This document shows positions 6,716-38,329 of a stretch of 64,000 bases of DNA, in pieces; within the stretch, counting starts at the first letter, position 1, and each line of letters starts with the position of its first letter. The notes under the pieces are model-generated. The model searched no databases and was not told where the DNA came from. It saw nothing but the letters and a program-made list of their open reading frames with translations. Source of the DNA: Gemmobacter fulvus (GTDB lineage: Bacteria; Pseudomonadota; Alphaproteobacteria; Rhodobacterales; Rhodobacteraceae). The translations under genes and the position numbers were made by a program. The DNA lies in NCBI RefSeq assembly GCF_018798885.1, contig NZ_CP076361.1, forward strand, positions 1,711,501 through 1,775,500, written 5' to 3'.

Positions 6716-7163
6716 AACCGCCCAGCGCGCCGCGCCCCTGATGTCCGGGCAGGTGATACGGCACAGCCTGATGGCCACGCCGCTGGCGGTGCGCGAGGCC
6801 TTGGGGCAGCTGTTCCACCACCCTGCGCTTCAGTCCTTCGGCCCCACCACCCGCGACACCGCCGAAATCGTGCTGGCCGAGGTGCTGAACAATATCGTCG
6901 AACATGCCTATGGCGGGCACGGCGGCCATATCACCGTGCAGGTCGAAGTTCTGGCGGACCGCCTGCTGTGCCAGATCCATGATGGGGGCCGCCCGATGCC
7001 CGGCCTGGAACTGCCGCAAGGCCAGTTGCGCCGCCTGCGCGATGACGATCTGCCCGAGGGCGGCTTTGGCTGGCACCTGATTCGTAGTCTCGCGCGGGAT
7101 CTGGCCTATGTCCGTCGGCAGGATCTGAACACGTTCAGCTTTCGCGTGGATGCGTCACAGTGA
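6705..7163 (+). CDS. ATP-binding anti-sigma factor / serine kinase (RsbW-like)
   Basis: A 152-residue GHKL ATPase of the HATPase_c_2 class found in RsbW/SpoIIAB anti-sigma kinases. The N-box is visible as EVLNNIVEHAYGG and the G1 box as IHDGGRPMP, followed by a degenerate G2 loop around GGFGWHLIRSLA. The kinase would phosphorylate the STAS partner encoded just upstream and sequester an unknown target. The start at 6705 overlaps the STAS gene by 11 bases; a later ATG (residue 13) is possible. The signalling output is unknown. In alphaproteobacteria the target may be another response-regulator pathway rather than sigma-B. Confidence 0.82.
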   Translation: MRAETAQRAAPLMSGQVIRHSLMATPLAVREALGQLFHHPALQSFGPTTRDTAEIVLAEVLNNIVEHAYGGHGGHITVQVEVLADRLLCQIHDGGRPMPGLELPQGQLRRLRDDDLPEGGFGWHLIRSLARDLAYVRRQDLNTFSFRVDASQ

Positions 7164-10127: not shown

Positions 10128-10727
10128 TTACTTGCGGCGTTCCATTTCCAGAGCGATGTTGAACAGCGTGGTGTTGTAGTTCTTGCCCTTGGTCATCTCG
10201 CCAAGGATCACCGTCGTCTGGCCACCGGCATCATCGGTGATCACCCATTGCCGCAACTCGACCGGATTGGCGGTGAACACCATCTCGATCGAGCCATATT
10301 CCGGGTGCTTCGGGTCTTGTGCGACCACGCGGGTGGTATTGCCATCCTCGCGGTGGCCGATCACCATCTTGGCGCGCCCCAGATCGACATTTTCCGCCAG
10401 GATCAGGTTCAGCGGCGTCTTGTCGAGCGGGTATTGCTCGGGCGGCTGGTTCGACTTGTTATCGAAAATCGCCACATTGCCAGCGCTGGCCATGACAAGG
10501 CTGCGGTCCGGTTTGGCATATTCAAACCGCACCCGGCCCGGGCGTTTGATGAACAGCTTGCCGGTGCCGATGCTGCCATCGGCATTCACCTGGGTGAACT
10601 CTGCCTCGGCCGTCGTCAGTTTGTTGAGATAGCCGGAAATCGCATTGAGAGAGATCTTCTCGGCCTGCGCGGGCAGGGCAAGCGCAAGAAGGGCGAGCGG
10701 GGCCAGAAGGGCGCGGAACGGTTTCAT
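10128..10727 (-). CDS. lolA: outer-membrane lipoprotein carrier protein LolA
   Basis: A 199-residue periplasmic chaperone that receives lipoproteins from LolCDE and passes them to the outer membrane. A clear Sec signal peptide (about 22 residues, ending LALPAQA) precedes the LolA beta-barrel with GKLFIKRPGRVRFEYAKPDR and the usual length. In many proteobacteria lolA directly follows ftsK. Here ftsK lies 12.6 kb upstream on the same strand and the interval is filled by the amine-oxidation genes. The start has no competing upstream ATG. Confidence 0.9.
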   Translation of the reverse strand: MKPFRALLAPLALLALALPAQAEKISLNAISGYLNKLTTAEAEFTQVNADGSIGTGKLFIKRPGRVRFEYAKPDRSLVMASAGNVAIFDNKSNQPPEQYPLDKTPLNLILAENVDLGRAKMVIGHREDGNTTRVVAQDPKHPEYGSIEMVFTANPVELRQWVITDDAGGQTTVILGEMTKGKNYNTTLFNIALEMERRK

Positions 10728-10789: not shown

Positions 10790-12499
10790 TCAGCCTGATT
10801 TTTCGGTCTGCGCCGCCGTCAGCTCGGCAATCATCGCATCGCGCATCACAAATTTCTGCGCCTTTCCCGTGACCGTCATCGGCAGGTCGGCTTTGAACCG
10901 CACATGGCGGGGCACCTTGTAATGCGCCATCTGGCCGCGACAGAATTCGCGGATCTCGGCCTCGGTGGCGCTTTGGCCAGGTTTCAGCACGATCCAGGCG
11001 CAGACCTCTTCGCCGAACTTGGCATCCGGCACGCCAAACACCTGCGCGGTCTGCACGGCAGGGTGACGGAACAGATACTCCTCCACCTCACGCGGATAGA
11101 TGTTTTCACCGCCACGGATCAGCATGTCTTTCAGCCGCCCCACGATGCTGCAATAGCCAGCCGCATCCAGCACCGCCAGATCGCCGGTGTGCATCCAGCC
11201 TTCCTCGTCAATCGCCTCGGCGGTCTTGCCCGGTTCGCCCCAATAGCCACGCATGACCGAATAACCGCGGGTGCAAAGCTCGCCGATCTCGCCCACGGCG
11301 ACGGTGGTACCCTGCTCGTTCACCAGCTTCACCTCCAGATGCGGATGGATGCGGCCCACCGTCGACACGCGTTTGTCGACCGGATCATCGGTCAGCGACT
11401 GGAACGACACGGGCGAGGTTTCGGTCATGCCATAGGCGATGGTCACCTCGGTCATGTGCATTTCGGTCTGCACGCGTTTCATCACCTCGATGGGACAGGG
11501 CGCGCCGGCCATGATGCCGGTGCGCAGGCTGCCCAGATCGTGATGCACAAAACTTTCCGCCGCGAGCATGGTCGAGAACATCGTGGGCACACCATACAGC
11601 GCGGTGCAGCGTTCATCCGCCACCGTGGCCAGCGTGGCATCGGCGTCAAAGCCCTCGCCCGGAAACACCATGGCCGCACCACACGTCACACAGCCCAGCA
11701 CGCCCATCACCATGCCGAAACAGTGATACAGCGGCACCGGAATGCACAGCCGGTCGGCGGCGGTGAAATTCATCCGCCCGGTCACGAATTGCGCATTGTT
11801 GAGGATGTTGCGATGGCTGAGCGTGGCCCCTTTCGGCAGGCCGGTGGTGCCCGAGGTGAACTGGATGTTGATCGCATCATCGGGCGACAGCGCCGCCGTG
11901 GCCCGCGCCAGCCGCGCCGGATCGGCGGGGGTTGCGGCGATGTGATCGAAATTCAGCATCCCGGCGCTGTCCCCTGCCCCCATGCGGATCACCAGCCGCA
12001 GATCGGGCAGCCGCGCCGACACCAGCGCACCGGGCGCGCAAGTGCCAAGCTCGGGCGCAAGGTCGGCCAGCATCGCCAGATAATCCGACGATTTGAACCT
12101 GTCCGCTGCAATCAGCGCCCGCACCCCGACATGGCGCAAGGCATAGTCCAGCTCGCCCAGCCGGTAAGCCGGATTCACATTGACCAGAATCGCCCCGATG
12201 CGCGCGGTGGCGAATTGCGTCAGCACCCATTCCGGGCGGTTCGGGGCCCAGATGCCCACCCTGTCGCCACGTGCAAGGCCAAGGTCCAACAGGCCCGTGG
12301 CCAGCCGGTCCACCGCCTCGGCCAATTGCTGCCATGTCAGTCGCAGGTCGCGGTCGGTAAAGATCAGCCCCTCACCCTGCGGGTTTTCGGCGGCACAGCG
12401 CGCCAGCGCTGCGGGAATGGTGTCATGCAGCAGCGGCGGCTGGCTTGCGCCCTGCACCCGTGCCTCGCCGCCCGGTCGCGGCGCTTCGGTATAGATCAT
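10790..12499 (-). CDS. AMP-forming acyl-CoA synthetase (fatty acid-CoA ligase family)
   Basis: A 569-residue adenylate-forming ligase that activates a carboxylic acid with ATP and joins it to CoA. The motifs are complete: P-loop [26 protein letters not shown], the [20 protein letters not shown] hinge region, and a C-terminal catalytic Lys in [19 protein letters not shown] Shine-Dalgarno precedes the ATG. It lies 61 bases downstream of an aldehyde dehydrogenase with a 10-bp hairpin between them. Next to the amine dehydrogenase cluster it could activate the fatty acid produced from an aliphatic amine; the chain-length range is unknown. Confidence 0.88.
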
Positions 12500-12518
12500 T
12501 CTGGTTCCTCCCCCGAGC

Positions 12519-12546
12519 GGGCGGGCCGCTCCTCAACGGCCCGCCC
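12519..12546 (-). other. intercistronic 10-bp hairpin between ALDH and acyl-CoA ligase genes
   Basis: GGGCGGGCCG at 12519-12528 pairs perfectly with CGGCCCGCCC at 12537-12546 over an 8-base loop. No T-run follows on either strand, so it is a weak intrinsic terminator at best. It may instead stabilise the ends of a processed two-gene mRNA. Structure seen; role inferred. Confidence 0.4.
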
Positions 12547-12560
12547 CCCTTGTGCCTGCC

Positions 12561-13964
12561 TCAGCGGGCTTCGTTCACGATATGCAACTGGGTGAATTCG
12601 GCCAGCCCTTCTTCTGCGAACTCCACCCCGATGCCCGATTGTTTGGCCCCGCCGAACGGCATGTTCGGGCCAAAATCCAGATGTTTGTTGATCCAGACCG
12701 TGCCACTTTCCATCCGCAGTGCCACAGCCCGCGCCGCCTCGCGGTCCTGCCCCCAGACAGACCCACCCAGCCCCCAAGGCGAGGCATTCGCCCGTGCCAG
12801 CGCGGTTTCGGTATCGCTGTAGCGCACCACCGGCAGGATCGGGCCGAACTGTTCTTCCTGCACGATGCGCGCATCGTCATCGACATCCGCCACGATGGTC
12901 GGGCGGATGAAGAAGCCGGGCCGATCCTCGACCGCGCCACCTGCGATGATGCGGCCGCTGGCCTTGGCATCGGCCAGAAACTCCTTCAGCTTTTCAAACT
13001 GCGTGCGGTTCTGCACCGGGCCGATGGTCGTGCCCTGTTTCAGCCCGTCATCCACCACCGCCGCATCGGCCAGACGGGCCAGACGCGAACAGATGTCGTC
13101 ATAGATCGAATCGTGGACATAGACCCGCTTGATCGCCAGGCACACCTGCCCGGCATTCAGGAAGGCGCCGCCAAAGATGCCCGGCGCGGCGGTTTCGGGG
13201 TCTGCCCCCGGCAGCACGATGGCCGCATCATTGCCGCCCAGTTCCAGCGTCAGCCGCTTGATGGTACCCGCCGCACTGGCCATGACCTTCTGCCCGGTGG
13301 CGCTGGATCCGGTGAACGAGATTTTCGCCACATCCGGGTGCGCCGTCAGCATTGCGCCCAGATCATTCAGGTCGGTGACGATGTTCACCACGCCCGCCGG
13401 AAACACCTCGGCCATGATCTCGCCCAGCTTCAGCGTGGCCAGCGGCGTCGTCGGTGCCGGTTTGATCACCAGCGTATTGCCCGCCAGCAAGGCCAGCGGC
13501 GCCTTGAAGGCCACGATCAGGATCGGGAAGTTCCACGGGATGATCGCGCCCACCACGCCCAGAGGGCGGCGATGCTGCTCCACCAGCCGGGTCTCATTGT
13601 CCTCGATCACCTTCACCGGCAGATCATAACCCGCCAGATGCCGGATGAAGGCGCAGGTATACAGGATCTCGGCCGAGGCTTCGGTCAGCGGTTTGCCCTG
13701 TTCCTGTGTCAGCAGCCGCGCGAAACTGTCGGCCTCTGCCTCCAGCCGGTCTGCCAGTGCAAGGATCATCGCCCGGCGTTCGGTCAGCGGGCGGGCCGCC
13801 CAGCCCGGAAAGGCCGCCTTTGCCGCCGCCACCGCCGCATTCATCTGTGCCGCCGACCCGCGCGGGCAGTGCGCCAGAACCTCTTCGGTCGCGGGGTTGA
13901 TGACCTCCATCACCGCATCCCCGTCGACCAGCGCCCCATTGATGAGCAGTTTATAGTCAGCCAT
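12561..13964 (-). CDS. aldehyde dehydrogenase (NAD(P)-dependent)
   Basis: A 467-residue ALDH-superfamily enzyme oxidising an aldehyde to the acid. The key residues are Asn145 in PWNFP, Glu241 in LELGG and the catalytic Cys275 in NAGQVC. GGND replaces the more usual GGK after the Glu, as in some ALDH branches. The start at 13964 is supported by GGAGGAAAAGCG immediately upstream; a longer in-frame reading to 14306 overlaps the divergent AraC gene and is rejected. It is divergent from qhpR (109-base gap). It probably removes the aldehyde made by QHNDH; this is inference from position. Confidence 0.9.
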   Translation of the reverse strand: MADYKLLINGALVDGDAVMEVINPATEEVLAHCPRGSAAQMNAAVAAAKAAFPGWAARPLTERRAMILALADRLEAEADSFARLLTQEQGKPLTEASAEILYTCAFIRHLAGYDLPVKVIEDNETRLVEQHRRPLGVVGAIIPWNFPILIVAFKAPLALLAGNTLVIKPAPTTPLATLKLGEIMAEVFPAGVVNIVTDLNDLGAMLTAHPDVAKISFTGSSATGQKVMASAAGTIKRLTLELGGNDAAIVLPGADPETAAPGIFGGAFLNAGQVCLAIKRVYVHDSIYDDICSRLARLADAAVVDDGLKQGTTIGPVQNRTQFEKLKEFLADAKASGRIIAGGAVEDRPGFFIRPTIVADVDDDARIVQEEQFGPILPVVRYSDTETALARANASPWGLGGSVWGQDREAARAVALRMESGTVWINKHLDFGPNMPFGGAKQSGIGVEFAEEGLAEFTQLHIVNEAR

Positions 13965-14073
13965 TCGCTTTTCCTCCATTTTGCGAAAAGATGTAATTTT
14001 CATGACGCCTGCGACTTGACGCAGCGGTCTGGCAGGCCGCATCCTCTGGCGATGCAGCACGGGGCCACCTGCC

Positions 14074-15084
14074 ATGAATGCCTCCTGGATCATTGCCCAG
14101 CCCTTTTCCGCGATGCGCGCACAGCATCGCATTGCGGCGCATGGCCCCGACGCGGGCCCGGATCCGCTTGCCGGGGATCGCCACATGCCGCTGCGCGATT
14201 TCGTGGCCGAGCTTGAGGCCGCGCGCTCTGCCGCCGATGATCCCCTGATCGCCTGGCAAATGGGCGAGACATTCGATCTGGCCGATCTGGGCCAGTTGGG
14301 CTGCACCGTGGCACAGGCCCCGACACTGGGGGCGGCGCTGCGCTGCTTTCAGCAGGGCTTCTTCGCGCTGCAATCCGGGGCCGAGGTGCGGCTGGATGTG
14401 GATGGCTCCGAGGCGCATTTCCACTATCGCATCCTCGACAGCCGGATCTGGCCGCGCCGTGCCGATGCTGAACTGACCCTTGGGGTTCTGGCGGGCATCG
14501 TGCGCCGCTATGTGCCGGGCGAACCGATGATGAATGGCGTGTCGTTTGAACACGCGCCCTGCGCTGCCCGACGCCAGATTGCCGACAAGGTCAGCTGTCA
14601 GCTGCGCTATGACGCGGGCGACAACACCATCAGCCTGCCGCTGCGCCTGCTGGATCGCCGCAGAAGTGATGCCGCCGCCACGGATACCGCCTTTCGCGAC
14701 AGCCTTCAGGCGCTGGACCGGCATGTGCAGGAGCTGCGCCGGGCCGAGCCGCTGCCAGACCGCGTGCGCCTCGCCATCTTTGAACGCATCGGCCGCGCCC
14801 CGCTGGATCAGGACAGCATCGCCCGGGTTCTGGGCCTGTCGGAGCGCAGCCTGCGCCGCCATCTGGAAAGCAACGGCACCAGCTTTCAGGAGTTGACCGA
14901 AGAATGCCGCCGCATCTTTGGCCATGCGCTGCTGGTGCGCAGCGCCGTCCCACTGAGCGAGATTGCGTTTCGGTTGGGTTATTCCGATCAAACCGCATTC
15001 TCCCGCGCGTTTTCGCGCTGGTATGGGGCGTCGCCGCGCGCGTTGCGGCAGGCGGGCGATGCGGGGGAAAGCGTGATCCGCTGA
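14074..15084 (+). CDS. qhpR: AraC-family transcriptional regulator, probable QhpR
   Basis: A 336-residue AraC/XylS regulator with an N-terminal arabinose-binding-type ligand domain (about residues 20-200) and a C-terminal double helix-turn-helix (about 245-325, containing VLGLSERSLRRHLES and IAFRLGYSDQTAFSRAFSRWYGASPRALR). In Paracoccus denitrificans an AraC-type QhpR activates the qhp genes in response to n-butylamine. Position at the end of a full qhp cluster makes this the obvious equivalent. Its last 97 bases overlap the 3' end of the convergent qhpF. A likely binding site is the inverted repeat at 21916-21978. The family call is certain; identity as QhpR is by context. Confidence 0.82.
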   Translation: MNASWIIAQPFSAMRAQHRIAAHGPDAGPDPLAGDRHMPLRDFVAELEAARSAADDPLIAWQMGETFDLADLGQLGCTVAQAPTLGAALRCFQQGFFALQSGAEVRLDVDGSEAHFHYRILDSRIWPRRADAELTLGVLAGIVRRYVPGEPMMNGVSFEHAPCAARRQIADKVSCQLRYDAGDNTISLPLRLLDRRRSDAAATDTAFRDSLQALDRHVQELRRAEPLPDRVRLAIFERIGRAPLDQDSIARVLGLSERSLRRHLESNGTSFQELTEECRRIFGHALLVRSAVPLSEIAFRLGYSDQTAFSRAFSRWYGASPRALRQAGDAGESVIR

Positions 15085-16718
15085 TCAAACGGCCCCTCGC
15101 GTGCCGGGCCTGCATGGGCGATCAGGATCCGGGTGCGATCCGCATAGGCCGCGTCGATCCGGGCCAGAATCCGCCGGGCCGACGCTGCGTCGATCTCTGA
15201 CAGGCTCTCATCCAGAACCAGCACACGGAAGGGCAGCAGCAGGGCGCGGGCGATGGCGATCTTCTGCCGCTCGCCCCCCGACAGGCCCGCACCGCCCTCG
15301 GACAGAGGCAGATCAAGCCCACGGCCCTGCGCCTGCACCCAATCGGCCAGATCAGCGCAGTCCAACACCTGCCACAGCTGCGCATCGGTGGCACCGGGGT
15401 CGGCCAGACGCAGGTTTTCGGCCAGAGTGCCGCGGATCAGCGCCCCGCGTTGCGGCACCAGCGCCACCCGGCGGCGCAGCGCCACGGCATCAAGCCTCAC
15501 CACATCCGCGCCATCCAGAAACACCCGCGCGCCCGGCCCCGGCGGGGCCAGACGCGCCGCCAGCATCATCAGCGTCGATTTTCCGACCCCGGACGGGCCG
15601 TCCATCAGCACCCGGCTGCCGGGGGCGATGGCAAAGTCTTGCGCGGCGTGCGCGGCGTGGCGCGCGCGGGCCTGATCAAAGCGCAGCGCACCGGGGCCGG
15701 GCGCGGGCATCCGCCCCGCAGGTTCCGCCAGCGCCGGATGGGCCAGCGCGCCCAACCGCGCCGCGGCCACCTTTGCCTGTGCCTGCGCATGATACAGGCC
15801 CAGCAGATTGCGCAACGGCCCGGTCATCAGCCCGATATAGGCCAGAAAGGCAATCAGCGACCCCAGTGGCCAAGCCCCCGCAATCACCATCATGCCGCCC
15901 GCCAACAGCACCGCCGACCGCACCAGCGCATTGAGGATCTGCGGCACCGCGCCGGTGATCTCTTGCCAGCGCCGTTGCCGCCACAGCGCCGCGATCTGCC
16001 CGGCCTGATGCGGCGCAAAGCCCGCGCTGCGCTGCGCCTCGGCCCCCAGTGTGCGCAGCAAGGGCAGCACGGCAAGGCTTTCGGTCAGGAAACTCGACAC
16101 ATCGCCCCGGTGCTGGCGGCTGTCTTCGGCGCGCGCCTGCGTGCGTGGACGCGCCCAGCTGAGAAACGCCAGCTCGATCGGGGCCGCGATCAGCGGGATC
16201 AGCGCCAGCCGCCAGTCCAGCAGCAGCAGCATGGCCGCGCCGCCGATCAGGCGGAACAGTGCCCCCACCGCCACCAGCACGGAATCAAACGCAAAGCGCT
16301 GGATTTCGGCGCTGTCGCCATCCAGCCTTGCCATCGCCTCGCCCAACGGCAAGGCCGGGCGGGTCGCCTGCTGCGCCAGCACCGCATCCAGCATCCGGGC
16401 GCGCAGATCGGCCAGCATCCGCGCCGAATAGCGCAGATGCAGCAGGCTGTTGCCGATGCCCGCGAGCAGGGCCACCAGCCCCAGCCCGAACAGCGCCGCC
16501 GCCCAGAGGCACAGCGCCCGCACATCGCCTGCAATAAGCCCCTGATCGATCAGCAGCTTGGTCAGATAGGGCGGGGCCAGCCCCAGCAGCGCCGCCGCCA
16601 GCGAACTGGCCAGCACCAGCGCCACGCCACCCATGGCCCGCGCCAGAACCGGCCCCAGCCACAGCGCGGCCTCTGCCCCGAACATCCGGCGGCTGGCCCA
16701 ATGGCCCAGACCCGTCAT
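14988..16718 (-). CDS. qhpF: ABC exporter QhpF (fused permease/ATPase)
   Basis: A 576-residue half-size ABC exporter with an N-terminal six-helix membrane domain (about residues 25-310) and a C-terminal ATPase carrying Walker A GPSGVGKST, signature LSGGERQKIAIARAL, Walker B VLVLDES and the H-loop in LIAHAG. In Paracoccus QhpF is required for QHNDH formation and is thought to move the crosslinked gamma peptide to the periplasm. The ATG at 16718 overlaps the qhpE stop (ATGA), so a longer reading to 16772 is unlikely. The C-terminus runs 97 bases into the convergent qhpR. Confidence 0.88.
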   Translation of the reverse strand: MTGLGHWASRRMFGAEAALWLGPVLARAMGGVALVLASSLAAALLGLAPPYLTKLLIDQGLIAGDVRALCLWAAALFGLGLVALLAGIGNSLLHLRYSARMLADLRARMLDAVLAQQATRPALPLGEAMARLDGDSAEIQRFAFDSVLVAVGALFRLIGGAAMLLLLDWRLALIPLIAAPIELAFLSWARPRTQARAEDSRQHRGDVSSFLTESLAVLPLLRTLGAEAQRSAGFAPHQAGQIAALWRQRRWQEITGAVPQILNALVRSAVLLAGGMMVIAGAWPLGSLIAFLAYIGLMTGPLRNLLGLYHAQAQAKVAAARLGALAHPALAEPAGRMPAPGPGALRFDQARARHAAHAAQDFAIAPGSRVLMDGPSGVGKSTLMMLAARLAPPGPGARVFLDGADVVRLDAVALRRRVALVPQRGALIRGTLAENLRLADPGATDAQLWQVLDCADLADWVQAQGRGLDLPLSEGGAGLSGGERQKIAIARALLLPFRVLVLDESLSEIDAASARRILARIDAAYADRTRILIAHAGPAREGPFDQRITLSPASPACRNARGDAPYQRENARENAV

Positions 16719-17386
16719 TCCTGCGCCACGCGGCGTTCCACGCCGTGAAAGCTGGCCCGGGCGCGCAGCCATGCGGACGCAGGGCCGATATGCCCCGAGG
16801 CCAGCATCACCGCCAGCAGCCCGGCCACCCGCGCCGTGGCCATGCTGGCCCCGCCCTGGCCGCTATGCCCCCGCTCGGGCGAGCCGCACCAGGCGCCGAA
16901 CACGCCGCCGGGCAGGACCGACACCTGATCCCAGTCACAGCGGGCATCGCCGGTGGCGGCAATCACCCCCGGATAGGCTGCGGGAAAACACGGCTCGCCG
17001 CGCGCCGGACTGGCCGCGACCAGCAGCACCCCCTGCTCCAGCGCCGCGATACAGGCGCGCCGCAGCGGCGCACGGTCCACCGCGAGACCAAGGCTGAGGC
17101 AGATGATATCGGCCTGCCCGCCACTGCGGCGCGGATCACCCAGCCAACTGACTGCGGCGGCAACCTGCGCCGAACTGGTGACGGGCCGGTCCAGAAACAC
17201 CTGTGCATGCACCAGTTGCACCGAAGGCCAGGCGCGGCGCAGCACCTGTGCCACCGCCGTGCCATGGCCCAGCCGGTCCGGCACCGGCGCGACAGAGGTG
17301 CCATCGGGCAGAAAGGCGCGGCCGCCCGGCAGATCTTCGGCCGGGCCGCCGCTGTCAATGACGCCGATGCGGGGCGCCATAATCAT
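16715..17386 (-). CDS. qhpE: subtilisin-like serine protease QhpE
   Basis: A 223-residue S8-family protease that in Paracoccus cleaves the 28-residue leader from the crosslinked QhpC peptide in the cytoplasm. The catalytic triad is visible as Asp11 (GVIDSG), His41 (LGHGTAVA) and Ser181 (GGASMATARVAG). There is no signal peptide or propeptide, matching an intracellular single-substrate processing enzyme shorter than secreted subtilisins. At the oxyanion-hole position, where subtilisins have Asn in AAGN, this protein reads AASP, with Pro127 in place of Asn. The start is ATG 17386 or the in-frame ATG 17380, with GAGGA upstream. It lies 3 bases after qhpB and overlaps qhpF by 4. Confidence 0.88.
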   Translation of the reverse strand: MIMAPRIGVIDSGGPAEDLPGGRAFLPDGTSVAPVPDRLGHGTAVAQVLRRAWPSVQLVHAQVFLDRPVTSSAQVAAAVSWLGDPRRSGGQADIICLSLGLAVDRAPLRRACIAALEQGVLLVAASPARGEPCFPAAYPGVIAATGDARCDWDQVSVLPGGVFGAWCGSPERGHSGQGGASMATARVAGLLAVMLASGHIGPASAWLRARASFHGVERRVAQE

Positions 17387-17389
17387 CGC

Positions 17390-18469
17390 TCAGTCCTCGC
17401 GCGTGAAAAGCCGGACCGAGGCCAGCGACATCGACGCCCCACCCGGCATCTTCACCTCGCCCTTGCGTTCCAGCGTTTCGGCATCATAGGCGGCCAGATC
17501 GCCCAGCGCGCCACCCAGCCAGACGGTGCGCCCGTCGGTTGACACGTTCACCGAATAATAGCTGTGCGGCAGCGGCACCCGCTTGATCGGCGCGGGCGTG
17601 GCCAGATCAAAACTCGACAGGAAGTTATAGGCCCCATAGAGGCGCGTCTTGTCGGGGCTGACGGCGGTGGAGAAATAGAAGATGTCGGTGGCCTCGGCAT
17701 CGCGCATCGACAGATCGCCGGTCGACAGATCAAGGGTCAGCAACCCGGTCTGATAGGCGGTCGGGTCGGTCGGATCCTTGTCCTTGCGCACCGCATAGAA
17801 TGGCGTCGCCATCACGCCCGAGCTTTCAAACTGGCTCCACACATCCAGAACATCGGGCTGGGTATGGGTGTCCTGTTGCCAGCCATGGATCGGCTTTTCC
17901 TCGATCACTGCCCCGGTGGTAGCATCGAACACAAACATGTTGCGGCCCATGCCATAGATCTTGCTGCCATCGGTGGCATAGGCCAGCAGCGTGATCTGGC
18001 GCGGCGCCGGGGCAGTGGATTTCAACGCGCCGGTTTCGGTATCGTAGAAAGCGATGCGGGTCGGCTGCACCTTGAACTCGGTCGCGTGCAGTTCGACCGG
18101 GCTTTGATAGACCACCAGCGTCTTGCCATCCGGCGCAAGATCCATGCCGAACATGCCTTTGACGCGGGTTGTGCCATCGCTCATGTCGATGCGCTTCAGC
18201 GTCTTGCCGCTGTGCAGATCGACCTCGGCAATGCTTTCCTGCCCGTTCATCAGCACGAAGGCGCGGCTGCCATCCTTGCTCACCACCGGCAATTGCGGCA
18301 TCGGGCCTGCATCTTCCAGCGTGATCACGGTTTCGATCGCCATCGCCTCGGCATCGACCACCACCAGTTTGTCGGGGCGGATCGGGGCGAGAATGTAATC
18401 GCGGGCGAGGGCAGGGCCGGCCAGCAGGCCCGCCGCCAGCAGGGCGGCAACAGAAGTGCGGTTCAGCAT
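17390..18469 (-). CDS. qhpB: quinohemoprotein amine dehydrogenase beta subunit QhpB
   Basis: A 359-residue periplasmic YVTN-type beta-propeller subunit. A Sec signal peptide of about 22 residues (ending AGPALA) is followed by repeated blades, for example DKLVVVDAEAMAIETVITL and SGKTLKRIDMSDGTTRVKGM. In QHNDH the beta propeller packs against the gamma subunit and lines the active-site cavity near the CTQ cofactor; it carries no cofactor. The length fits the known mature beta subunits of about 335-340 residues. It sits 4 bases after qhpC and 3 bases before qhpE, consistent with tight operon coupling. Confidence 0.9.
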   Translation of the reverse strand: MLNRTSVAALLAAGLLAGPALARDYILAPIRPDKLVVVDAEAMAIETVITLEDAGPMPQLPVVSKDGSRAFVLMNGQESIAEVDLHSGKTLKRIDMSDGTTRVKGMFGMDLAPDGKTLVVYQSPVELHATEFKVQPTRIAFYDTETGALKSTAPAPRQITLLAYATDGSKIYGMGRNMFVFDATTGAVIEEKPIHGWQQDTHTQPDVLDVWSQFESSGVMATPFYAVRKDKDPTDPTAYQTGLLTLDLSTGDLSMRDAEATDIFYFSTAVSPDKTRLYGAYNFLSSFDLATPAPIKRVPLPHSYYSVNVSTDGRTVWLGGALGDLAAYDAETLERKGEVKMPGGASMSLASVRLFTRED

Positions 18470-18473
18470 CGGA

Positions 18474-18800
18474 TCACCCTTTCAGTTTCGGAAAGACCGA
18501 TTGCAGCTGCCGCCAGTCTTCTTCGACAGCAGGGGCCTTGTCGGACCAGTTGGGATAGGTGTTGAGCGTGTCGGCCACCTGTGCGGGCCACCAGCAGGGG
18601 TCGGCGCAGCCATAGAGATCGGCCTCCATCGGCTGACACAGGTTGGCCACGCCGCCAAAGGCGTCGATTTCCCAGCCGGGATCGAACGAGGTGGTGCAGC
18701 CCACCATCGAATTCATCGCCACAACCTCGGCCTCGCGCCCCTCGGCGGCGGCTTCGGTAAAGGCCTTTGCCTTGGCATTTGCGGGGGTCAGATGTTTCAT
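18474..18800 (-). CDS. qhpC: quinohemoprotein amine dehydrogenase gamma subunit precursor QhpC
   Basis: A 108-residue precursor of the catalytic gamma subunit. A 28-residue non-Sec leader (1-28, Ala/Glu-rich) precedes a mature part of 80 residues beginning at Met29. Counting from there, every residue modified in the Paracoccus enzyme is present: Cys7-Glu16 (C35, E44), Cys27-Asp33 (C55, D61), Cys41-Asp49 (C69, D77), and the CTQ pair Cys37-Trp43 (C65, W71). Three thioether bonds are installed by QhpD, Trp oxidation by QhpG, and leader removal by QhpE. The ATG overlaps the qhpD stop by 4 bases. Confidence 0.95.
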
Positions 18801-20230
18801 TGCATGGCTCTCCTTGGCTCAAGATGGCTGCGGAAAAAGGATGGATTGGCCTGCATGATGCGGGTGTAGGCCTCGATGCCGAAATCCACCCAGTCGCGCA
18901 TCAGATCGCAGTAGTGATAGACGGGGGCGAAGGGGTCGCCCTGGCGTGCATAACTTTCGTGATAGCAGCCCCCGGCACAGATCGAGCGGATCCGGCAGGT
19001 CTTGCAGCCAAAGGCGCTGCGGTCCTGTGCCGTCTCGATGAAGCTGGCAAGGCGCGGCACGTCGATGCCGGTTTCCACATTGCCATAGGTCGGCTGGTTC
19101 GATCCGACAAAGCGGTGGCACAGATGCAGATCGCCGGATTTGTCGACCGCCAGCATCCCCAGCCCCGCGCCGCAGGGCACGGCTTTCTTGGTGCCCTGCG
19201 CGATATCGGTCAGCAGCTGGTGCATGTTGGAAAAGCCGATGTTTTCTCCGCGCATCGCCGCTTCGGTATAACGGCGGCCCAGGGTCTTCATGTCCTCGAA
19301 CACCTGTTTCAGCCCGGCCTCATCCAGATTGAATACCGAAACCGGGCCAGAGGTGGCTGGGCCAAAGCCCACTTCGGCAAAGCCCAGATCGTTTTTCAGG
19401 TGGTCATGGATGCCGATGACATCGGTCACGCCCCGCGTCAGCGTGACCCGCACGCCAACCGGCCGGGCACGATAGCGGGCCAGCAGCATCCGCACCTTGC
19501 TGGCGACCACATCATAGGTGCCGCGCCCACCCACCGTCAGCCGGTTCACATCATGCAGGGCTTTCGGACCGTCCATGCTGACCGTCAGCGCAAAGCGATG
19601 CGCATCGAACCAGTCGACCATCTCTTCGGTCAGCAGGGTGGCATTGGTGGTCAGGGAAAAATCCACCACCTTGCCCAGTTCCGCCGCCCGCGGCACCGCA
19701 TACTCCACCACGGCGCGGATCAGCGGCATGTTCGACAGCGGCTCGCCGCCAAAGAACACCACATTCACCCGGTCGCGCGAAACGGCCTGTTTCAGCAGCA
19801 GCTCGAACGAGGCTTTCGCCGTGGCGAACTGCATCTTTTCGCCTTTGGAAGGCGTGGTCAGATCTTCCTTGTAACAATAGGTGCAGGCCAGATTGCAGCC
19901 GGTATTGACGTTGAGCACGATGGTGGAAAGCGGGATCTCTTCCACCTTCACGATCTCGCGCGGGATCTGCGGCAGATCGGCGTCGCGCAGAATATCAAGG
20001 CTCAGAAAGCTCTGCACACAATCGGCCAGCGCCTGCGGCGCATAGCGCCCGGCAAAGCTGTGGCGCATGGTGGCCGGATCGACCGCACCGCTGCGGCGGA
20101 ACAGGTCCAGCACCGACTGGCTGATTTCGTCCATCTCGAACAGGCTTGTGGTGGGCACATGCAGCAGCATGGCACGCCCGTCCACATCCACCTGATGCGC
20201 ATTGTGTCTGACCAGAACTAGGGCTGTCAT
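18797..20230 (-). CDS. qhpD: radical SAM peptide-crosslinking enzyme QhpD
   Basis: A 477-residue radical SAM/SPASM enzyme that forms the three intra-peptidyl Cys-to-Asp/Glu thioether bonds in QhpC. The CX3CX2C cluster is C112, C116, C119 (GCNLACTYC). Residues 1-90 fit a small peptide-recognition domain, and the last 150 residues are Cys-rich ([29 protein letters not shown]), consistent with two auxiliary Fe-S clusters. The start at 20230 follows the qhpA stop by 10 bases and is preceded by GAGGATGCG. A longer in-frame reading to 20353 overlaps qhpA and is rejected. It is translationally coupled to qhpC. Confidence 0.95.
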
Positions 20231-20240
20231 CGCATCCTCC

Positions 20241-21800
20241 TCAGCGGATCGGGGTGTCAACAAAGCGTTGGACGGTGGCGTAAAGATGCGCCTTGCCTTC
20301 CAGCACCTGCGCGCCATCGGTGACGGTCGCCACGACCCACAGATTGCCCGCATTGTTGGTGTTCATCGGGCGGTCGGGGTTCGGGCCGGCATCGCCGGGT
20401 TCAAACAGCCCGTTCGCGTCAATCTGGCCCGCGAATTTGGCATCCTGCATTTCCACTGCCGCCGCGTCGTAATCTTCGGTCCGCCAGGTGGCGGGCACCA
20501 CGCCGATGCGCAGGTCATCCGCGGTCTCCGGCTGGCCGTCGGGACCATGGGCAAAGCCCACCGCCTCGAACTGTGCGGGCACTTTCGGGATCGGGCCGCC
20601 ATTGTCGCCAATCCGCGAGAAGGTCAGCTCCGGCACCACCGCCACCCGGTCGATCTTGTCATAGACCACCAGTGCGCCGGGCAGGCTCAGGCTGCCAATG
20701 CCCAGATCCTGCGCACCGATCACCGCATCCGCCGCCGCCGTCAGCCGCAGCACCACACGGGTTTCGTCTTGCGACACGACCTCGCCGCTGACCCCGGCAG
20801 GCAGCACCGGCTCCCCGGCAAGACCGAGCCCGGTGATCGTGACCTCCGCCGTGGCCCCAGCCTTCAGATGGGCAGGGCTGACCGACAGGATCTGCGCTGC
20901 CGCATCAGATTTGACCGCCCGCAAACGCCCGCCGATCTTGTCGCGATCCACCTCGAACCAGCGGCCCGACAGGCTGCCATCACCGCCCAGCGCAAACACC
21001 TGCCGGATGTCGGTCGCACCATCGCTCAGAGTGGCGCGCCATTCGCCTGCGCCCAGCAACAGCCCGGTTCCGGTGAAGGTGGTGGTGCTGGCATCGGCAA
21101 AGGTCAGCGCCATGGTCACGGTGTAATCCTGGCCCGCGGCGGCCAGCGTCAGCGTGCCGTGATAATCGCCCCGGCCCGGTTGCCGCCCCGCCACCTGCCA
21201 TGTGCCCGACAGATCGGCGCCCGCCGCCGCCGGAGCCGTGCCCATCACATAGGCTTCGGTCAGGGTTTTCAGCACCTCGGTCTGCGCGATGCCCCACCAG
21301 TCGCGGTCGCGTGCGAGGGCCTGATATTCCAGGCTGGGATATTGCCCCAGATGGAAATGCAGCAGCTTTTCCCAATCTTCGGCGGTGCGTCGTTGCAGGG
21401 CCACCCGCGAATAGGAATGGCAGCGCCCGCAGGTCTGCGTCATCAGATCATTGGGGCCGGTGTCCGTGGCCACCGGCTCACGCTCCAGAATATAACGATA
21501 ACCTTCGGTTTCTGCGACCGACAGCCCGCGCGTGTCCGACAGATAACGCACCACCGCCACCCGCTCTTCCTCGGTCAGGGCGACCTGATGGTTGCGCATC
21601 ATGCGCACCACCGTCATGTCCCATGCCTCGGGGGTGCGGCGACCCTCGTCGATGCGCGGCAGGGTGCCATCGGCGCGCGGCACATGGCAGCTTGTGCAGA
21701 CATCCGCCACCACCGCCGCGCCATCGGCTGCAAATCCGGGGGCGGCGAGCGCCATGGCAGCGCAGGTCGATAGCAGGGCAAAGGGGAAATGGCGGCGCAT
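20241..21800 (-). CDS. qhpA: quinohemoprotein amine dehydrogenase alpha subunit QhpA (diheme)
   Basis: A 519-residue periplasmic subunit with a Sec signal peptide (cleavage after about residue 25, PGFAA). It has two c-type heme sites, C35-T-S-C38-H39 and C124-G-R-C127-H128, in an N-terminal diheme domain, followed by beta-rich domains. It accepts electrons from CTQ in the gamma subunit and passes them to a soluble cytochrome or cupredoxin. It is the first gene of the leftward qhpADCBEF operon. Its 5' region faces qhpG over 236 bases holding a strong inverted repeat. Length and architecture match known alpha subunits. Confidence 0.95.
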   Translation of the reverse strand: MRRHFPFALLSTCAAMALAAPGFAADGAAVVADVCTSCHVPRADGTLPRIDEGRRTPEAWDMTVVRMMRNHQVALTEEERVAVVRYLSDTRGLSVAETEGYRYILEREPVATDTGPNDLMTQTCGRCHSYSRVALQRRTAEDWEKLLHFHLGQYPSLEYQALARDRDWWGIAQTEVLKTLTEAYVMGTAPAAAGADLSGTWQVAGRQPGRGDYHGTLTLAAAGQDYTVTMALTFADASTTTFTGTGLLLGAGEWRATLSDGATDIRQVFALGGDGSLSGRWFEVDRDKIGGRLRAVKSDAAAQILSVSPAHLKAGATAEVTITGLGLAGEPVLPAGVSGEVVSQDETRVVLRLTAAADAVIGAQDLGIGSLSLPGALVVYDKIDRVAVVPELTFSRIGDNGGPIPKVPAQFEAVGFAHGPDGQPETADDLRIGVVPATWRTEDYDAAAVEMQDAKFAGQIDANGLFEPGDAGPNPDRPMNTNNAGNLWVVATVTDGAQVLEGKAHLYATVQRFVDTPIR

Positions 21801-21915
21801 CGGGGCGTGATCCTCTGGCTATGCAACGTGCCGCGCGGTGGTCGTTCAGATGTGCCGGGCGGTGCGTGACGCTGGGTTAGGTCGCCAGTATTCCGGGCCT
21901 CTGCCGCCGCTTTCT

Positions 21916-21978
21916 TGACATTTGCGGCCAAAACTGCGGCGTTCAGCCGCAGGCTGTGCAACTTGGCCGGAAATGTCA
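21916..21978. promoter_or_regulatory. inverted-repeat operator between qhpA and qhpG (candidate QhpR site)
   Basis: TGACATTTGCGGCCAA at 21916-21931 and TTGGCCGGAAATGTCA at 21963-21978 are inverted copies matching at 15 of 16 positions, separated by 31 bases. The arrangement sits in the middle of the divergent qhpA/qhpG region, 115 bases from the qhpA start and 58 bases from the qhpG start. Two long matched half-sites are what a dimeric AraC-family activator would need to drive both directions. The repeat is seen directly; the assignment to QhpR is inference. Confidence 0.7.
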
Positions 21979-22036
21979 GGAATGGACGGGGCGAAGGGGG
22001 TTTCCTGCCTGTTGTCGCAGCAAATGGATCACGAAA

Positions 22037-23320
22037 ATGCAGGATCATACCGATCTGGCGATTCTGGGCGGCGGCCCGGCCGGGGCTGTTTCGGCCTGGC
22101 TGGCGGCGCAGGAAGGTCTGCGCGTGGCCCTGATCGACCCCTGCCAGACCCCGGCCCGCATCGAGGGCCTCAGCCCGCGCCTGCATCACTGGCTCCAGAC
22201 ACAGGGTCTGCTGGTCGGGTTCGACGGGCTGATCGGCCCCCTGCCCCGGCGCAGCCTCTGGGCCGGGATCGACAGCAGCCACAATGGCGAGTTTCTGGTC
22301 TGCCGCGCCGCGCTGGATGCCCATTTGCGGCACATGGCGGTGCAGGCCGGGGCGCGGCTGATACAGGGCAGCGGCAAGCCCCAGCCGGGGGGCGTGGTGC
22401 TGGCCGATGGCACCGCTTTGGGCGCGGGGCAGGTGCTGGATGCGCGCGGGCGGCGGGCGCAGACCCGCAGCGCGGCGCAACGCGGCCCGGCCACGCTGGC
22501 CATCGGCGCCTGGCTTTCAGCGCCGCGCAGCACCCCCCTTAGCACGGTGATCTGCCCGCTGCCGCAGGGCTGGCTGTGGCTGGCCGTCACTTATCCCGGG
22601 CGGACCTGGGTGCAATTGACCGTGGATGCCGCCAGCCCGCTGTCCCCGCGCGCCCGGCTGCGCGCGGCGCTGCGACTGGCCGAGGGCCTGCCGGAGGGGC
22701 TACACCTGACCGCCCGGCCCTTGCTGATCCGCGAGGCGGCTCCCGTCCTGTCACCGCCGCCGGGCGATCTGGCGGTGATCCCGGTGGGGGATGCCAGCGC
22801 CGCGATGGATCCGCTGTCGGGCCATGGCCAGTTCTGGGCGGTGTCGAGCGCGCTGGCCGTGGCCGCCGCCCGCCGCACCGGCGCCGCCCGGCCCGGCGCG
22901 CAGACGGATGCACTGATTCTGCGCTTTCTGCACGAACGCAGCCATGACACCTATCTGCGGCAGGCCCGGCTTGGCCGCGATTTTCTGCGTCTGGAACCGC
23001 GCTTTCACGATCAGCCGTTCTGGCGCGCCCGCCAGAGCTTTCCCGACGATCTGCCCAGCCATGCCCCCGCCCATGTAGCGGTGATGCCGCGCGTGGTGGT
23101 GCGCGCGGGTCTGCTGGTGGAAATGGAGGTGCTGATCACCCCCGCCTCGCCGGGCGGGGTGGGCTGGATGGGGCAGGTGCCCGCCGCCGAGGCCTGGCGG
23201 CAACTGGAAGCGGGGGCCGGGGCGGCGCAGCTTATAGCGCAATGGGGTCCGTCCGCCGCCGCCTTTCCGGGCTGGCTTGCCGCACAGATGCAGGTGCCGG
23301 GCGCGGCCACCCGGCCTTGA
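22037..23320 (+). CDS. qhpG: FAD-dependent monooxygenase QhpG (CTQ biogenesis)
   Basis: A 427-residue class-A-type flavoprotein monooxygenase. The FAD-binding GxGxxG motif is AILGGGPAGAVSAWLA near the N-terminus, and the second flavin motif is VGDASAAMDPLSGHG around residue 250. In Paracoccus QhpG hydroxylates the tryptophan of the crosslinked QhpC peptide that becomes the quinone of CTQ. It is transcribed divergently from qhpA and shares the operator region. The start at 22037 places the dinucleotide fold at the N-terminus; the in-frame ATG at 21956 would add a non-conserved tail. It ends 4 bases from the convergent ftsK stop. Confidence 0.92.
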   Translation: MQDHTDLAILGGGPAGAVSAWLAAQEGLRVALIDPCQTPARIEGLSPRLHHWLQTQGLLVGFDGLIGPLPRRSLWAGIDSSHNGEFLVCRAALDAHLRHMAVQAGARLIQGSGKPQPGGVVLADGTALGAGQVLDARGRRAQTRSAAQRGPATLAIGAWLSAPRSTPLSTVICPLPQGWLWLAVTYPGRTWVQLTVDAASPLSPRARLRAALRLAEGLPEGLHLTARPLLIREAAPVLSPPPGDLAVIPVGDASAAMDPLSGHGQFWAVSSALAVAAARRTGAARPGAQTDALILRFLHERSHDTYLRQARLGRDFLRLEPRFHDQPFWRARQSFPDDLPSHAPAHVAVMPRVVVRAGLLVEMEVLITPASPGGVGWMGQVPAAEAWRQLEAGAGAAQLIAQWGPSAAAFPGWLAAQMQVPGAATRP

Positions 23321-23324
23321 AGCT

Positions 23325-26300
23325 TCAGACTTCGGGGATCAGGATTTCCCGCTTGCCGACGTGGTTCGCCGGGGTCACGACGCCCTCTTCTTCCATCTGC
23401 TCCACCAGACGCGCGGCCTTGTTATAGCCGATGCCCAGCTTGCGCTGGATGTAGGAGGTGGAGCATTTGCGGTCTTTCGCCACAATCGCCACCGCCTGAT
23501 CGTAAAGCGCATCCTCGCCTTCGGTATTGCCGCCCGTGTTCAGGCCCAGCACCGCGTCGATGTCATCGGCCTTGTCATCCTCCGGCCCCTCGACCACGCC
23601 CGACATATAGACGGGCGGCCCGAAGGATTTCAGGTGGTTGACGATTTCCTCGACCTCCTCATCCGACACGAAGGGGCCGTGAATCCGGGTGATGCGTGCG
23701 CCATTGCCCATATAGAGCATGTCACCCATGCCCAAGAGCTGCTCTGCCCCCTGCTCGCCCAGAATGGTGCGGCTGTCGATCTTCGACGTGACCTGGAACG
23801 AGATCCGGGTGGGGAAGTTGGCCTTGATCGTGCCGGTGATCACATCGACCGAGGGCCGCTGCGTCGCCATGATCAGGTGGATGCCCGAGGCGCGGGCCAT
23901 CTGCGCAAGGCGCTGGATACAGGCCTCGATTTCCTTGCCCGCCACCATCATCAGGTCGGCCATCTCGTCCACGATCACCACGATATAGGGAATGGCGACG
24001 GGGGCGAATTCTTCGGTTTCAAACACCGGCTCGCCGGTATCCTCGTCAAAGCCGGTCTGGATCGTGCGCTTGAACATTTCCTGATTGGCCAGCGCCTCGC
24101 GCACACGGCCGTTATAACCGTCGATGTTGCGCACACCCATCTTCGACATCTTGCGATACCGCTCTTCCATCTCGCCCACGACCCATTTCAGGGCGACGAC
24201 CGCCTTCTTCGGATCGGTGACAACCGGCGAGAGCAGATGCGGAATGCCGTCATAGACGCTGAGTTCCAGCATCTTCGGGTCGATCATGATCAGGCGGCAT
24301 TCTTCGGGCGTCAGCTTATAGAGCAGCGACAGGATCATAGTGTTGATCGCAACCGATTTGCCCGAGCCGGTGGTGCCCGCAATCAGCAGGTGGGGCATCT
24401 TGGCAAGGTTGGCCACGATCGGGTCGCCGCCAATGTCCTTGCCCAGCGCCAGTGGCAGCCGCATCGCGGAATCGCCAAAGTCACGCGCCGACAGGATTTC
24501 GCGCAGCACCACCTTTTCGCGGGTGGCATTGGGCAGTTCGATCCCGATCACGGTGCGGCCCGGCACGGTGGACACCCGCGCCGACAGCGCCGACATCGAC
24601 CGCGCGATGTCATCGGCCAGACCGATCACCCGGCTGGCCTTGAGGCCTGGCGCGGGTTCCAGTTCATACATGGTCACAACCGGGCCGGGACGAACCGAGA
24701 CGATTTCGCCCTTCACGCCGTAATCATCCAGCACGGATTCCAGCATCCGCGCGTTTTCCTCCAGCGCCTCATCGCTCAGCGTGTGGCGCTGCACGGTCGA
24801 GGGCGAGGTCAGCAAGGACAGCGGCGGCAGTTCATAGGCCTGCTGCATCTGTTCTTCAAACCGCAGACGCGGTTGCGCCTCGGCCACGGCACGGGCCGAA
24901 GGTTGCACCGGCTTTTTCAGCGGATGCTGCACCACGCGCTTCACCTCGGCGGTGACGCGCGGGGCCGACATCACCGGCTCATGGCGCGACGGGGCCACGC
25001 GCAGCGGCGCATGGCTTTGCACCGGCTGCACCGGGGTCGGATCATAATCCGGCTCGTAATCGCCATCCGGGGCCCAGTCATAGGCCTCGTCCGGCGCATA
25101 GGCCAGCGGGACGGCGAGCGTGTCATATTCCGGCACATCGGGCACAAGGGCGGCAGGCTCTTCCCAGACCGGCTCCACCGGCGCGGGCGCAGGCTTCGGG
25201 GCCGGGGCAGGCATCCGCGTGGCCACCGGGCGCAGCAGCGGGGCCGGGCGGTCCAGCGTGACGGCAGCCTCGGCATGATCCGCGTCCAGCGTCAGCGGTG
25301 CGGCGGCCGGTTGCGGTGCGGGCTGGGGCGGCGCTTGCACATGGGCAAGCTGCGCATGGGCCTGTGCCGCGCGCGCCGCCGCCGAGGCGACAGCGGCAGA
25401 CACCGCGTTCAGCGCCACCGGCGTCTGCACCTGTGCGGCCACCACCGGCGGCTCCATCAGGCCGCGCCCGACCGGGGCAGGCTGCACCCCGCGGCGCGTG
25501 ACGGCGGGTTCACGCCGGGCAATCGCCGCCTGCAAGGGGGTCATATGCGGCTGCGGGGCCGCAGCCCCCATGCCTTGCCGCACGCGGGTTTTGATCACAT
25601 CCGAGATCCGCGCCTTGATGCGGTCTTCTTGCGGCACATCGTCTGCCATCTGGTCCTGTTCGGGGTAATAGGTCTGTTCCGGCTCCACCGCGCGGCGCAG
25701 GCGGCCAAGGAAGCCTTCTTTTTTCTTCGGGGCGGGTGCACGCATCGGCACCGGGGCCAGATCCAGCGGCGGCGGCTCTGGCTGGCGCGGCGCGGCCAGC
25801 GGGGCCGCTGCCGTCACCGCAGCACGCGGCGCGCGCATCGGCGCACCCCGCAGGGTTTGCGGCGCGTCATACTGCATCGCAGGTGCATAATCGGGGGTAT
25901 CATCTTCCAGCAGATCGGACTCGGCCCGCAGCACCCGGTTGCGCCGCCCGGCCATGGTTGCGGCCTGCGCCGGGGCTGCCGCCACCGGCATCTGCGCCGC
26001 GCGCAGCGCCTGCGAATCCGCCTTGCGCTGCCGCTGCCGCTCCTGCATCGCCGAAGCCGCCCGCGCAGCCCCCGCCGTGCCACGCCCGGCCAGCGCCATG
26101 CCATGCGAATAGGCCATCACCGACCCGATGGCGAGATAGTGCCGGATCACCCGCAGCTCTTCCAGATCGAAGCCGGTCACGAACAGCAGCATGCCGAGCA
26201 CGGCAAGCCCGGTCAGCAGCGACATCACATGCAGGCCGAAGGTTGCCTTGACCGGGGCCATGCCCAGCAGCGCGCCCAGCACCGTATCACCGAACAATCC

Positions 26301-26726
26301 GCCCAGCCCGAAGGAATGGGGCCAATCGGCCCCCGGCACATGGGTCGCGGCAAAGACCGAGGCCATGGCAACCGCGATCAGCGCAAAGACCACACGCCCC
26401 ACCGCCCGATCCGCCCCGCGATGCAGCACGAAGCGCATCCCCCAGGCGAACAGCACCAGCGGAATCGCCCAGCCGCCCTTGCCCGCAATGATCATCAGCG
26501 TCGAGGCCACCGCCGCGCCGATCCGGCCCAGCCAGTTCTGCACCGGCTGATCGGTGGCCGACATCCAACTGGGATCCGCCGGCGAATAGCTGGCCAGCAT
26601 CACGGTGAACAGCAGTGCCGCGAAAATCAGCCCGATGCCGATCAGTTCACGCGCACGACGCTCAAGCATCGCCTGCATGTTCGGATCAACCAGCGGATCG
26701 CGTTGACGCATCTGAAAAGAAGCCAT
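23325..26726 (-). CDS. ftsK: DNA translocase FtsK
   Basis: A 1133-residue septal DNA pump for chromosome segregation and dimer resolution. The N-terminal part (about residues 25-205) has four to five membrane segments. A long Pro/Ala/Gln-rich linker (about 215-640) follows, then the RecA-like motor with Walker A GTTGSGKS at about residue 785 and Walker [10 protein letters not shown] near 917. The C-terminal winged-helix gamma domain ends the protein ([24 protein letters not shown]). GAGGA precedes the ATG. It is 9 bases downstream of an aminotransferase gene. lolA, its usual downstream neighbour, is displaced by the amine island. Confidence 0.95.
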
Positions 26727-37756: not shown

Positions 37757-38256
37757 CGCCGCTTGATCTTGTAGTGACGCCGCGCGGCACACGCTTTCTG
37801 GGGCGCTATTTCCCCTGCACCATCGGGCGGGGCGGCATTGTTCCCGCAGCCGCAAAACGCGAAGGCGATGGCGCCACGCCTGCGGGCGTGCATCGCATCG
37901 TGGGGATGCTGTATCGGCCCGACCGTCTGGCCCATCTGCCCGATTGGGCGCTGCCGATCGGCCCCTCGGATCTGTGGTCGGATGACAGCGCCGATCCCGA
38001 CTACAATCTGATGGCGCGCGCGCCGCATCGCTTTTCCCACGAAAAGCTGCGCCGCGCCGACCCGCTCTATGATCTGGTGCTGATCACCGACTGGAACTGG
38101 CCCCATGCCGAACCGGGCCGGGGGTCGGCGATTTTCCTGCACGCCTGGCGCAGGCCCGGGTATCCAACGGCAGGCTGCGTGGCCTTTGCGCCGCAGAACC
38201 TGCGCTGGATCGCGCAACGCATCCGGCCCCAGACCCGGCTCATCGTCAAGGCCTGA
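37753..38256 (+). CDS. L,D-transpeptidase (YkuD) family protein
   Basis: A 167-residue YkuD-fold protein. The catalytic His and Cys are seen in [18 protein letters not shown], matching the HX(n)SXGC-type active site with Thr before Ala-Gly-Cys. The N-terminus is IGRGG and [12 protein letters not shown]. There is no signal peptide, unusual for a peptidoglycan transpeptidase but common in this short subfamily. It starts at GTG, overlapping the ribA stop by 4 bases. It may act in cell-wall remodelling; that is family inference. Confidence 0.83.
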
Positions 38257-38329
38257 CGATTTTCACGGCCCTGGCTTCCCAAAGCGCTTTCAATTCCCTA
38301 TTCTGCACTGCATCAGCGGAGGGGGCATC

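Follow-up and report, generated by a model that had tools for sequence, protein, structure and literature searches.

Quinohemoprotein amine dehydrogenase (QHNDH) and the chemistry by which its cysteine tryptophylquinone (CTQ) cofactor is made are already established from work on Paracoccus denitrificans and Pseudomonas putida, and we claim nothing new in that respect. According to the excerpted text of PMC7876137, the system is present in more than 1300 species. Here we describe a qhp locus in a 64,000-nucleotide stretch of the Gemmobacter fulvus genome (contig NZ_CP076361.1, positions 1,711,501 to 1,775,500; hereafter the window). Judged from the encoded proteins, we are nearly certain that it is an apparently intact and complete QHNDH cluster. 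Its order and orientation are those of the P. denitrificans DSM 413 locus, i.e. a divergent qhpG, the series qhpA-D-C-B-E-F and a convergent qhpR, and the Qhp proteins of the two loci are 46-84% identical. Pseudomonas putida (structure 1JMX; HAI-2 locus) also encodes homologous alpha, beta, and gamma subunits together with QhpD, QhpE, QhpF, and QhpG, but there F and G precede A, all three on one strand, and its 21.4-kb locus contains no match to the QhpR of the window.

All eight Qhp proteins are encoded at positions 14074-23320 in open, uninterrupted reading frames (Table 1), the starts of which were selected by gene context. Consecutive genes of the A-to-F series are separated by 10 (A/D), 4 (C/B), and 3 bases (B/E) or overlap by 4 bases (D/C and E/F). 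The genes, strands, gaps of 3-10 bases, and 4-base overlaps described in an initial annotation of the window were thus confirmed from the open reading frames (ORFs) and their coordinates. The convergent qhpF and qhpR overlap by 97 bases (14988-15084). The same annotation had listed a full set of parts (qhpADCBEF, qhpG, and qhpR), and a profile search bore this out: apart from QhpF, which was assigned by position and identity, the proteins (seven in all: A, B, C, D, E, G, and R) each scored above the equivalog cut-off of the NCBIfam model for the respective QHNDH subunit or Qhp maturation protein, the E-values lying between 4e-235 for D and 4e-50 for C, far beyond chance. The D and G queries in this search had longer upstream starts. 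Both the gamma peptide and the radical SAM enzyme, the two proteins that the annotation had singled out as decisive should they belong elsewhere, fall within QHNDH families (NF037958 and TIGR03906, respectively). Pfam results were concordant for A, C, D, E, F, and R, consisted of short nucleotide-binding matches only for G, and included no match for the qhpB product. QhpF contains both ABC domains and is 57.6% identical to, and syntenic with, the P. denitrificans DSM 413 copy.

Table 1. Genes of the qhp block and candidate regulatory sites, in window coordinates.
Feature	Coordinates	Strand	Length	Evidence
qhpA, diheme alpha subunit of QHNDH	20241..21800	-	519 aa	TIGR03908, 656.8 vs cut-off 274.35 bits; CTSCH and CGRCH
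qhpD, radical SAM/SPASM thioether-forming maturase	18797..20230	-	477 aa	TIGR03906, 780.7 vs 453 bits; CX3CX2C
qhpC, gamma subunit precursor (28-residue leader and CTQ core)	18474..18800	-	108 aa	NF037958, 168 vs 50 bits
qhpB, beta-propeller beta subunit	17390..18469	-	359 aa	TIGR03907, 365.7 vs 223.2 bits
qhpE, subtilisin-like leader protease	16715..17386	-	223 aa	NF049966, 223.7 vs 165 bits
qhpF, ABC exporter	14988..16718	-	576 aa	PF00664 and PF00005; synteny and identity
qhpR, AraC-type regulator	14074..15084	+	336 aa	NF049968, 363.9 vs 250 bits
qhpG, flavoprotein peptidyl-tryptophan dihydroxylase	22037..23320	+	427 aa	NF049967, 411.6 vs 240 bits
Aldehyde dehydrogenase linked to qhp	12561..13964	-		PF00171; 75-78% identity to copies in Paracoccus qhp loci
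Acyl-CoA ligase linked to qhp	10790..12499	-		PF00501; NF009233, 855.2 vs 832 bits; 75% identity, same place in P. sanguinis DSM 29303
Operator-like arm, half of inverted repeat	21916..21931	.		One mismatch to consensus
Operator-like arm, other half of inverted repeat	21963..21978	.		Exact; 31 bp from first arm

Residues expected of a working system are retained. The alpha subunit contains two CXXCH haem motifs (CTSCH and CGRCH), QhpD a CX3CX2C motif at position 112 plus further cysteines, QhpE the catalytic triad Asp11, His41, and Ser181 within their motifs, and QhpF the Walker A, LSGG, and LVLDE motifs; the motif names are those in general use. In the gamma subunit, numbered after the 28-residue leader, Cys7, Glu16, Cys27, Asp33, Cys37, Cys41, Trp43, and Asp49 are all present; excerpts of PMC8172795 give the pairs Cys7/Glu16, Cys27/Asp33, and Cys41/Asp49 as thioethers and Cys37/Trp43 as CTQ, and a leader of this length is reported in the excerpted text of PMC7876137. 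When QhpG was read by hand off an alignment with 7CTQ, allowing for a numbering shift of two that we inferred, Glu42, Arg70, Trp74, Glu84, Arg89, Asp260, and Pro267 (numbering of PMC7876137, from the same excerpts) were found to be retained; Arg36, described there as less conserved, was not. Among solved structures, the alpha, beta, and gamma subunits match chains A, B, and C of 1JJU (5e-195, 1.6e-146, and 4.1e-45, respectively) and also match 1JMX. The sole match of QhpG at E-values up to 0.001 is 7CTQ (3.4e-41), and the best of five matches of QhpD, none of which is named QhpD, is the radical SAM protein 5WGG (3.1e-48).

Judging by characterised homologues from Paracoccus and Pseudomonas and by the mechanism given in the excerpted text of PMC7876137, the system may work as follows. 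In response to an amine signal, QhpR would activate the promoters of the divergent genes qhpA and qhpG, with the inverted repeat that separates them as its probable point of action. QhpD would grip QhpC through its leader and make three Cys-to-Asp/Glu thioethers, Trp43 would be dihydroxylated by QhpG, and the leader would be cut off by QhpE before export of the core to the periplasm by QhpF, where the core, QhpA, and QhpB would assemble while CTQ is completed. The enzyme would then convert primary amines to aldehydes, passing electrons via its two haems to a periplasmic carrier, and the linked aldehyde dehydrogenase and acyl-CoA ligase could take the aldehyde through the acid to acyl-CoA. Growth on primary amines and the gamma-subunit modifications, both put forward in the initial annotation, accordingly keep the standing of predictions from sequence. 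Two cupredoxin matches elsewhere in the genome are candidate electron acceptors.

In one scan of the GTDB genome set, 507 stretches encoded a relative of QhpD, and the best 80 of these were used for all locus comparisons. A, D, C, B, E, F, and G occur together, each at >70% coverage, in 57 of the 80 loci; the remainder include short contigs. The system is widespread, and a full cluster in another genome is therefore not surprising; the identity of the cluster given in the initial annotation stands, but the system is not rare. Within the sample of 61 genomes comprising that of the window and its relatives, the gamma family was found in three, i.e. the genome of the window and two genomes of other genera in the same family. 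Searches of the 10 other genus members, eight of them with a completeness of 90% or more, detected no gamma gene. The window thus documents a full set of CTQ-biogenesis genes in a genus from whose 10 other searched members the gamma gene is missing. PF08992 gave only one match in the genome of the window, and a second QHNDH gamma gene there was accordingly rejected. A tryptophylquinone oxidase of the LodA/GoxA type was likewise rejected, the flavoprotein scoring 46.4 (LodB) and 51.5 bits (GoxB) against cut-offs of 400. The methylamine dehydrogenase light-chain family PF02975 gave no match in the genome and none in 14 control genomes. In total, 27 plasmid records matched QhpD at 1e-80, including 10 from Paracoccus and 14 from Leisingera, and both of the two records inspected carry qhp genes. 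One of the 80 loci lies in a record titled Enemella evansiae, an actinobacterium, and contains a Rhodobacterales-type qhp cluster; this record is probably misnamed.

The unit is larger than the range given in the initial annotation, which held for the Qhp genes and ended at qhpR, omitting the aldehyde dehydrogenase and acyl-CoA ligase genes that adjoin qhpR (10790-13964). In P. denitrificans DSM 413, the qhp genes are likewise followed by an aldehyde dehydrogenase gene (78% identical), but no match to the ligase is present in its 21.4-kb stretch, whereas P. sanguinis DSM 29303 has the same ten-gene order as the window, with both linked genes. Identities to the latter locus are 90% for gamma, 81% for D, 78% for the aldehyde dehydrogenase, 75% for the ligase, 74% for B, 66% for F, 65% for A, 60% for E, 52% for G, and 51% for R. 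An uncultured Paracoccus locus has the ligase (74%) without the aldehyde dehydrogenase. A strong forward-strand aldehyde dehydrogenase match accompanies a QhpR match in eight of the 80 loci, and in two further loci (L019 and L029) the aldehyde dehydrogenase match is on the other strand. The best aldehyde dehydrogenase among other members of the genus is 58% identical to that of the window, which is below the values for copies in Paracoccus qhp loci. Because P. sanguinis shares the ten-gene order, the linked genes suggest a pathway from amine via aldehyde and acid to acyl-CoA.

When the qhpG-qhpA intergenic region of the window was aligned with 27 related regions (10 of which were displayed), the longest conserved feature was TGACATTTCCGGCCAA and its inverse TTGGCCGGAAATGTCA. 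With up to three mismatches, the two arms are the only matches in the 64 kb; the expectation is 0.78 matches, and two or more turned up in 13 of 100 shuffles, which makes the match count weak on its own. The arms face each other with 1 and 0 mismatches, the five other matches in the whole genome all have two mismatches, and a reversed-pattern control gave two matches in all. For the genomes of eight relatives, 17 matches with no more than one mismatch were listed, of which 15 lie inside qhp loci and two elsewhere. One-mismatch sites outside qhp loci in Paracoccus relatives (G068:C10:21185-21200 and G067:C4:199234-199249) are possible further regulon members.

The repeat, scored at up to three mismatches and up to 500 bp upstream of qhpA, was recovered from 25 of the 30 large loci in which QhpR has a match and from none of the 32 in which it has none (Fisher p about 1e-12, a value that ignores the relatedness of the loci). 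This comparison covers 62 of the 80 loci: six were dropped because they had no qhpA or less than 500 bp ahead of it, and a further 12, under 15 kb, were excluded. A QhpR match was defined as a tblastn match at 1e-8 to the QhpR of the window, a criterion that may miss distant regulators. Of the exceptions, three (L068, L071, and L081) contain, some 7 kb into the locus, a half-site with 2-3 mismatches that by its position is probably ahead of qhpG, which there precedes qhpA on the same strand; a fourth (L050) has 4-mismatch sites in the same region, about 7 kb in, and the fifth (L064) has a site of four mismatches at 6964 and one of three at 5691. The arms of 22 loci are spaced, start to start, by 25 (four loci), 35-36 (four), 46-48 (13), or 58 bp (one), the value for the window being 47. 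These steps are close to one helical turn, which is suggestive only, because the 10.5-bp period was picked after the distances had been seen and the loci are related. We consider the inverted repeat to be probably the QhpR operator. Literature searches on QhpR and the qhp operon turned up no paper describing such an operator; one may be in print, most likely in Nakai 2014 (Biochemistry 53:895).

A second pair (up to four mismatches) precedes the aldehyde dehydrogenase gene in seven of the eight loci that have both QhpR and a forward-strand aldehyde dehydrogenase; all seven, including P. denitrificans DSM 413, are Paracoccus loci. The prediction offered here is of a QhpR operator and, in these Paracoccus relatives, of a regulon that would take in the next enzyme of the pathway. 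In P. aminovorans, an operator-like half-site lies beyond qhpR (L003, 16332-16347) in a locus with no aldehyde dehydrogenase match.

The block is flanked by genes for LolA (10128-10727) and FtsK (23325-26726), as identified with Pfam. In one genome of the same genus (G007), lolA and ftsK are neighbours, with 172 non-aligning bases where the window has the 12.5-kb block (10790-23331); this genome is a draft, 82% complete, in which the LolA and FtsK readings are both interrupted. No FtsK match was found within 18-19 kb around lolA in the eight other members of the genus examined; in two of these, lolA and ftsK lie about 50 and 150 kb apart on one contig, and in G008 lolA is on a 3.9-kb contig. 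The empty site is thus represented by one genome, and adjacency of lolA and ftsK is not general in the genus. On a quick maximum-likelihood tree, the window is placed next to four loci from the P. sanguinis group of Paracoccus, DSM 29303 being one of them (SH-aLRT 99), and Paracoccus divides into two groups; the tree was built from seven concatenated proteins in 58 rows, with no bootstrap and with long-branch and uneven-composition warnings in many rows.

Lateral gain of the block is favoured but not proved, being likely because lolA and ftsK are adjacent in one same-genus draft and the gamma gene is missing from the 10 other members searched. The block may instead be ancestral to the genus and have been lost elsewhere, a course that we consider rather unlikely. 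Its base composition is not distinct, no flanking direct repeat stood out and no mobile gene marks its edges, and the adjacency seen in a single incomplete draft is also compatible with loss; however, loss fits less well with the absence of the gamma gene throughout the other members, with the Paracoccus group as the nearest relatives, and with the 10 Paracoccus plasmid records carrying qhp. Among 35 ORFs of the window run against Pfam, which were not all of its ORFs, no integrase or transposase family was found and 11 had no match; they were run in sets of 10, 4, 10, 10, and 1, and two of the ten-ORF sets (1e-8 limit) were chosen by length, so that some are probably in the wrong frame. It is highly improbable that we are dealing with a silent or decaying version of the cluster, with intact frames but damaging substitutions or no expression and hence no active enzyme. 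Identities to the copies in the 29 best non-Pseudomonas loci are only 50-58% for QhpG and 39-54% for QhpR, the gamma gene is otherwise missing from the genus (none in the 10 members searched), and decay does occur in relatives, given that several qhp genes of the inspected P. contaminans plasmid are annotated in pieces (L135, 11085-16138), which suggests a decayed copy or sequencing errors. Yet conservation is lowest for G and R among the relatives too, and the eight open frames, the retained catalytic residues, and the equivalog scores all speak for function. The probability that the gamma-like peptide is matured for another purpose, as a secreted ribosomally synthesised and post-translationally modified peptide of the ranthipeptide kind, is negligible: QhpD also matches the ranthipeptide (PapB) and SCIFF maturase models, but at 266 vs 340 and 215.5 vs 425 bits it is below both cut-offs while far above that of TIGR03906, and the alpha and beta subunits are encoded adjacently.

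Our fuller proposal is that a portable ten-gene amine-to-acyl-CoA cassette entered the genus between lolA and ftsK, that QhpR acts via the 16-bp inverted repeat on both divergent promoters with arm spacing that moves in near-helical-turn steps, and that a second copy of the repeat adds the aldehyde dehydrogenase to the regulon in P. denitrificans-type clusters. Taken jointly, these statements appear to us evenly balanced between holding and failing. Several observations count against our main reading of the locus. Among the best 25 of 146 NCBIfam rows for QhpF, which are general ABC exporter models, no equivalog cut-off was passed, and its assignment therefore rests on synteny and identity. 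None of the best 25 of 43 NCBIfam models passes its cut-off for the aldehyde dehydrogenase, so that its substrate is not assigned by profile, and there are 33 matches to this enzyme in the genome, so that the linked copy need not be the only or the main one. The second pair is missing before the aldehyde dehydrogenase gene in both P. sanguinis DSM 29303 and the window (nothing within five mismatches at 13901-14150), and co-regulation of this gene in the window is therefore unsupported. Finally, since the loci are related, the repeat and QhpR could have been co-inherited without binding. The operator and the larger cassette would be modest additions to a well-characterised system.

Elsewhere in the window, positions 38105-40216 encode an alpha-amylase family protein with a Pfam match to an amylosucrase C-terminal domain.

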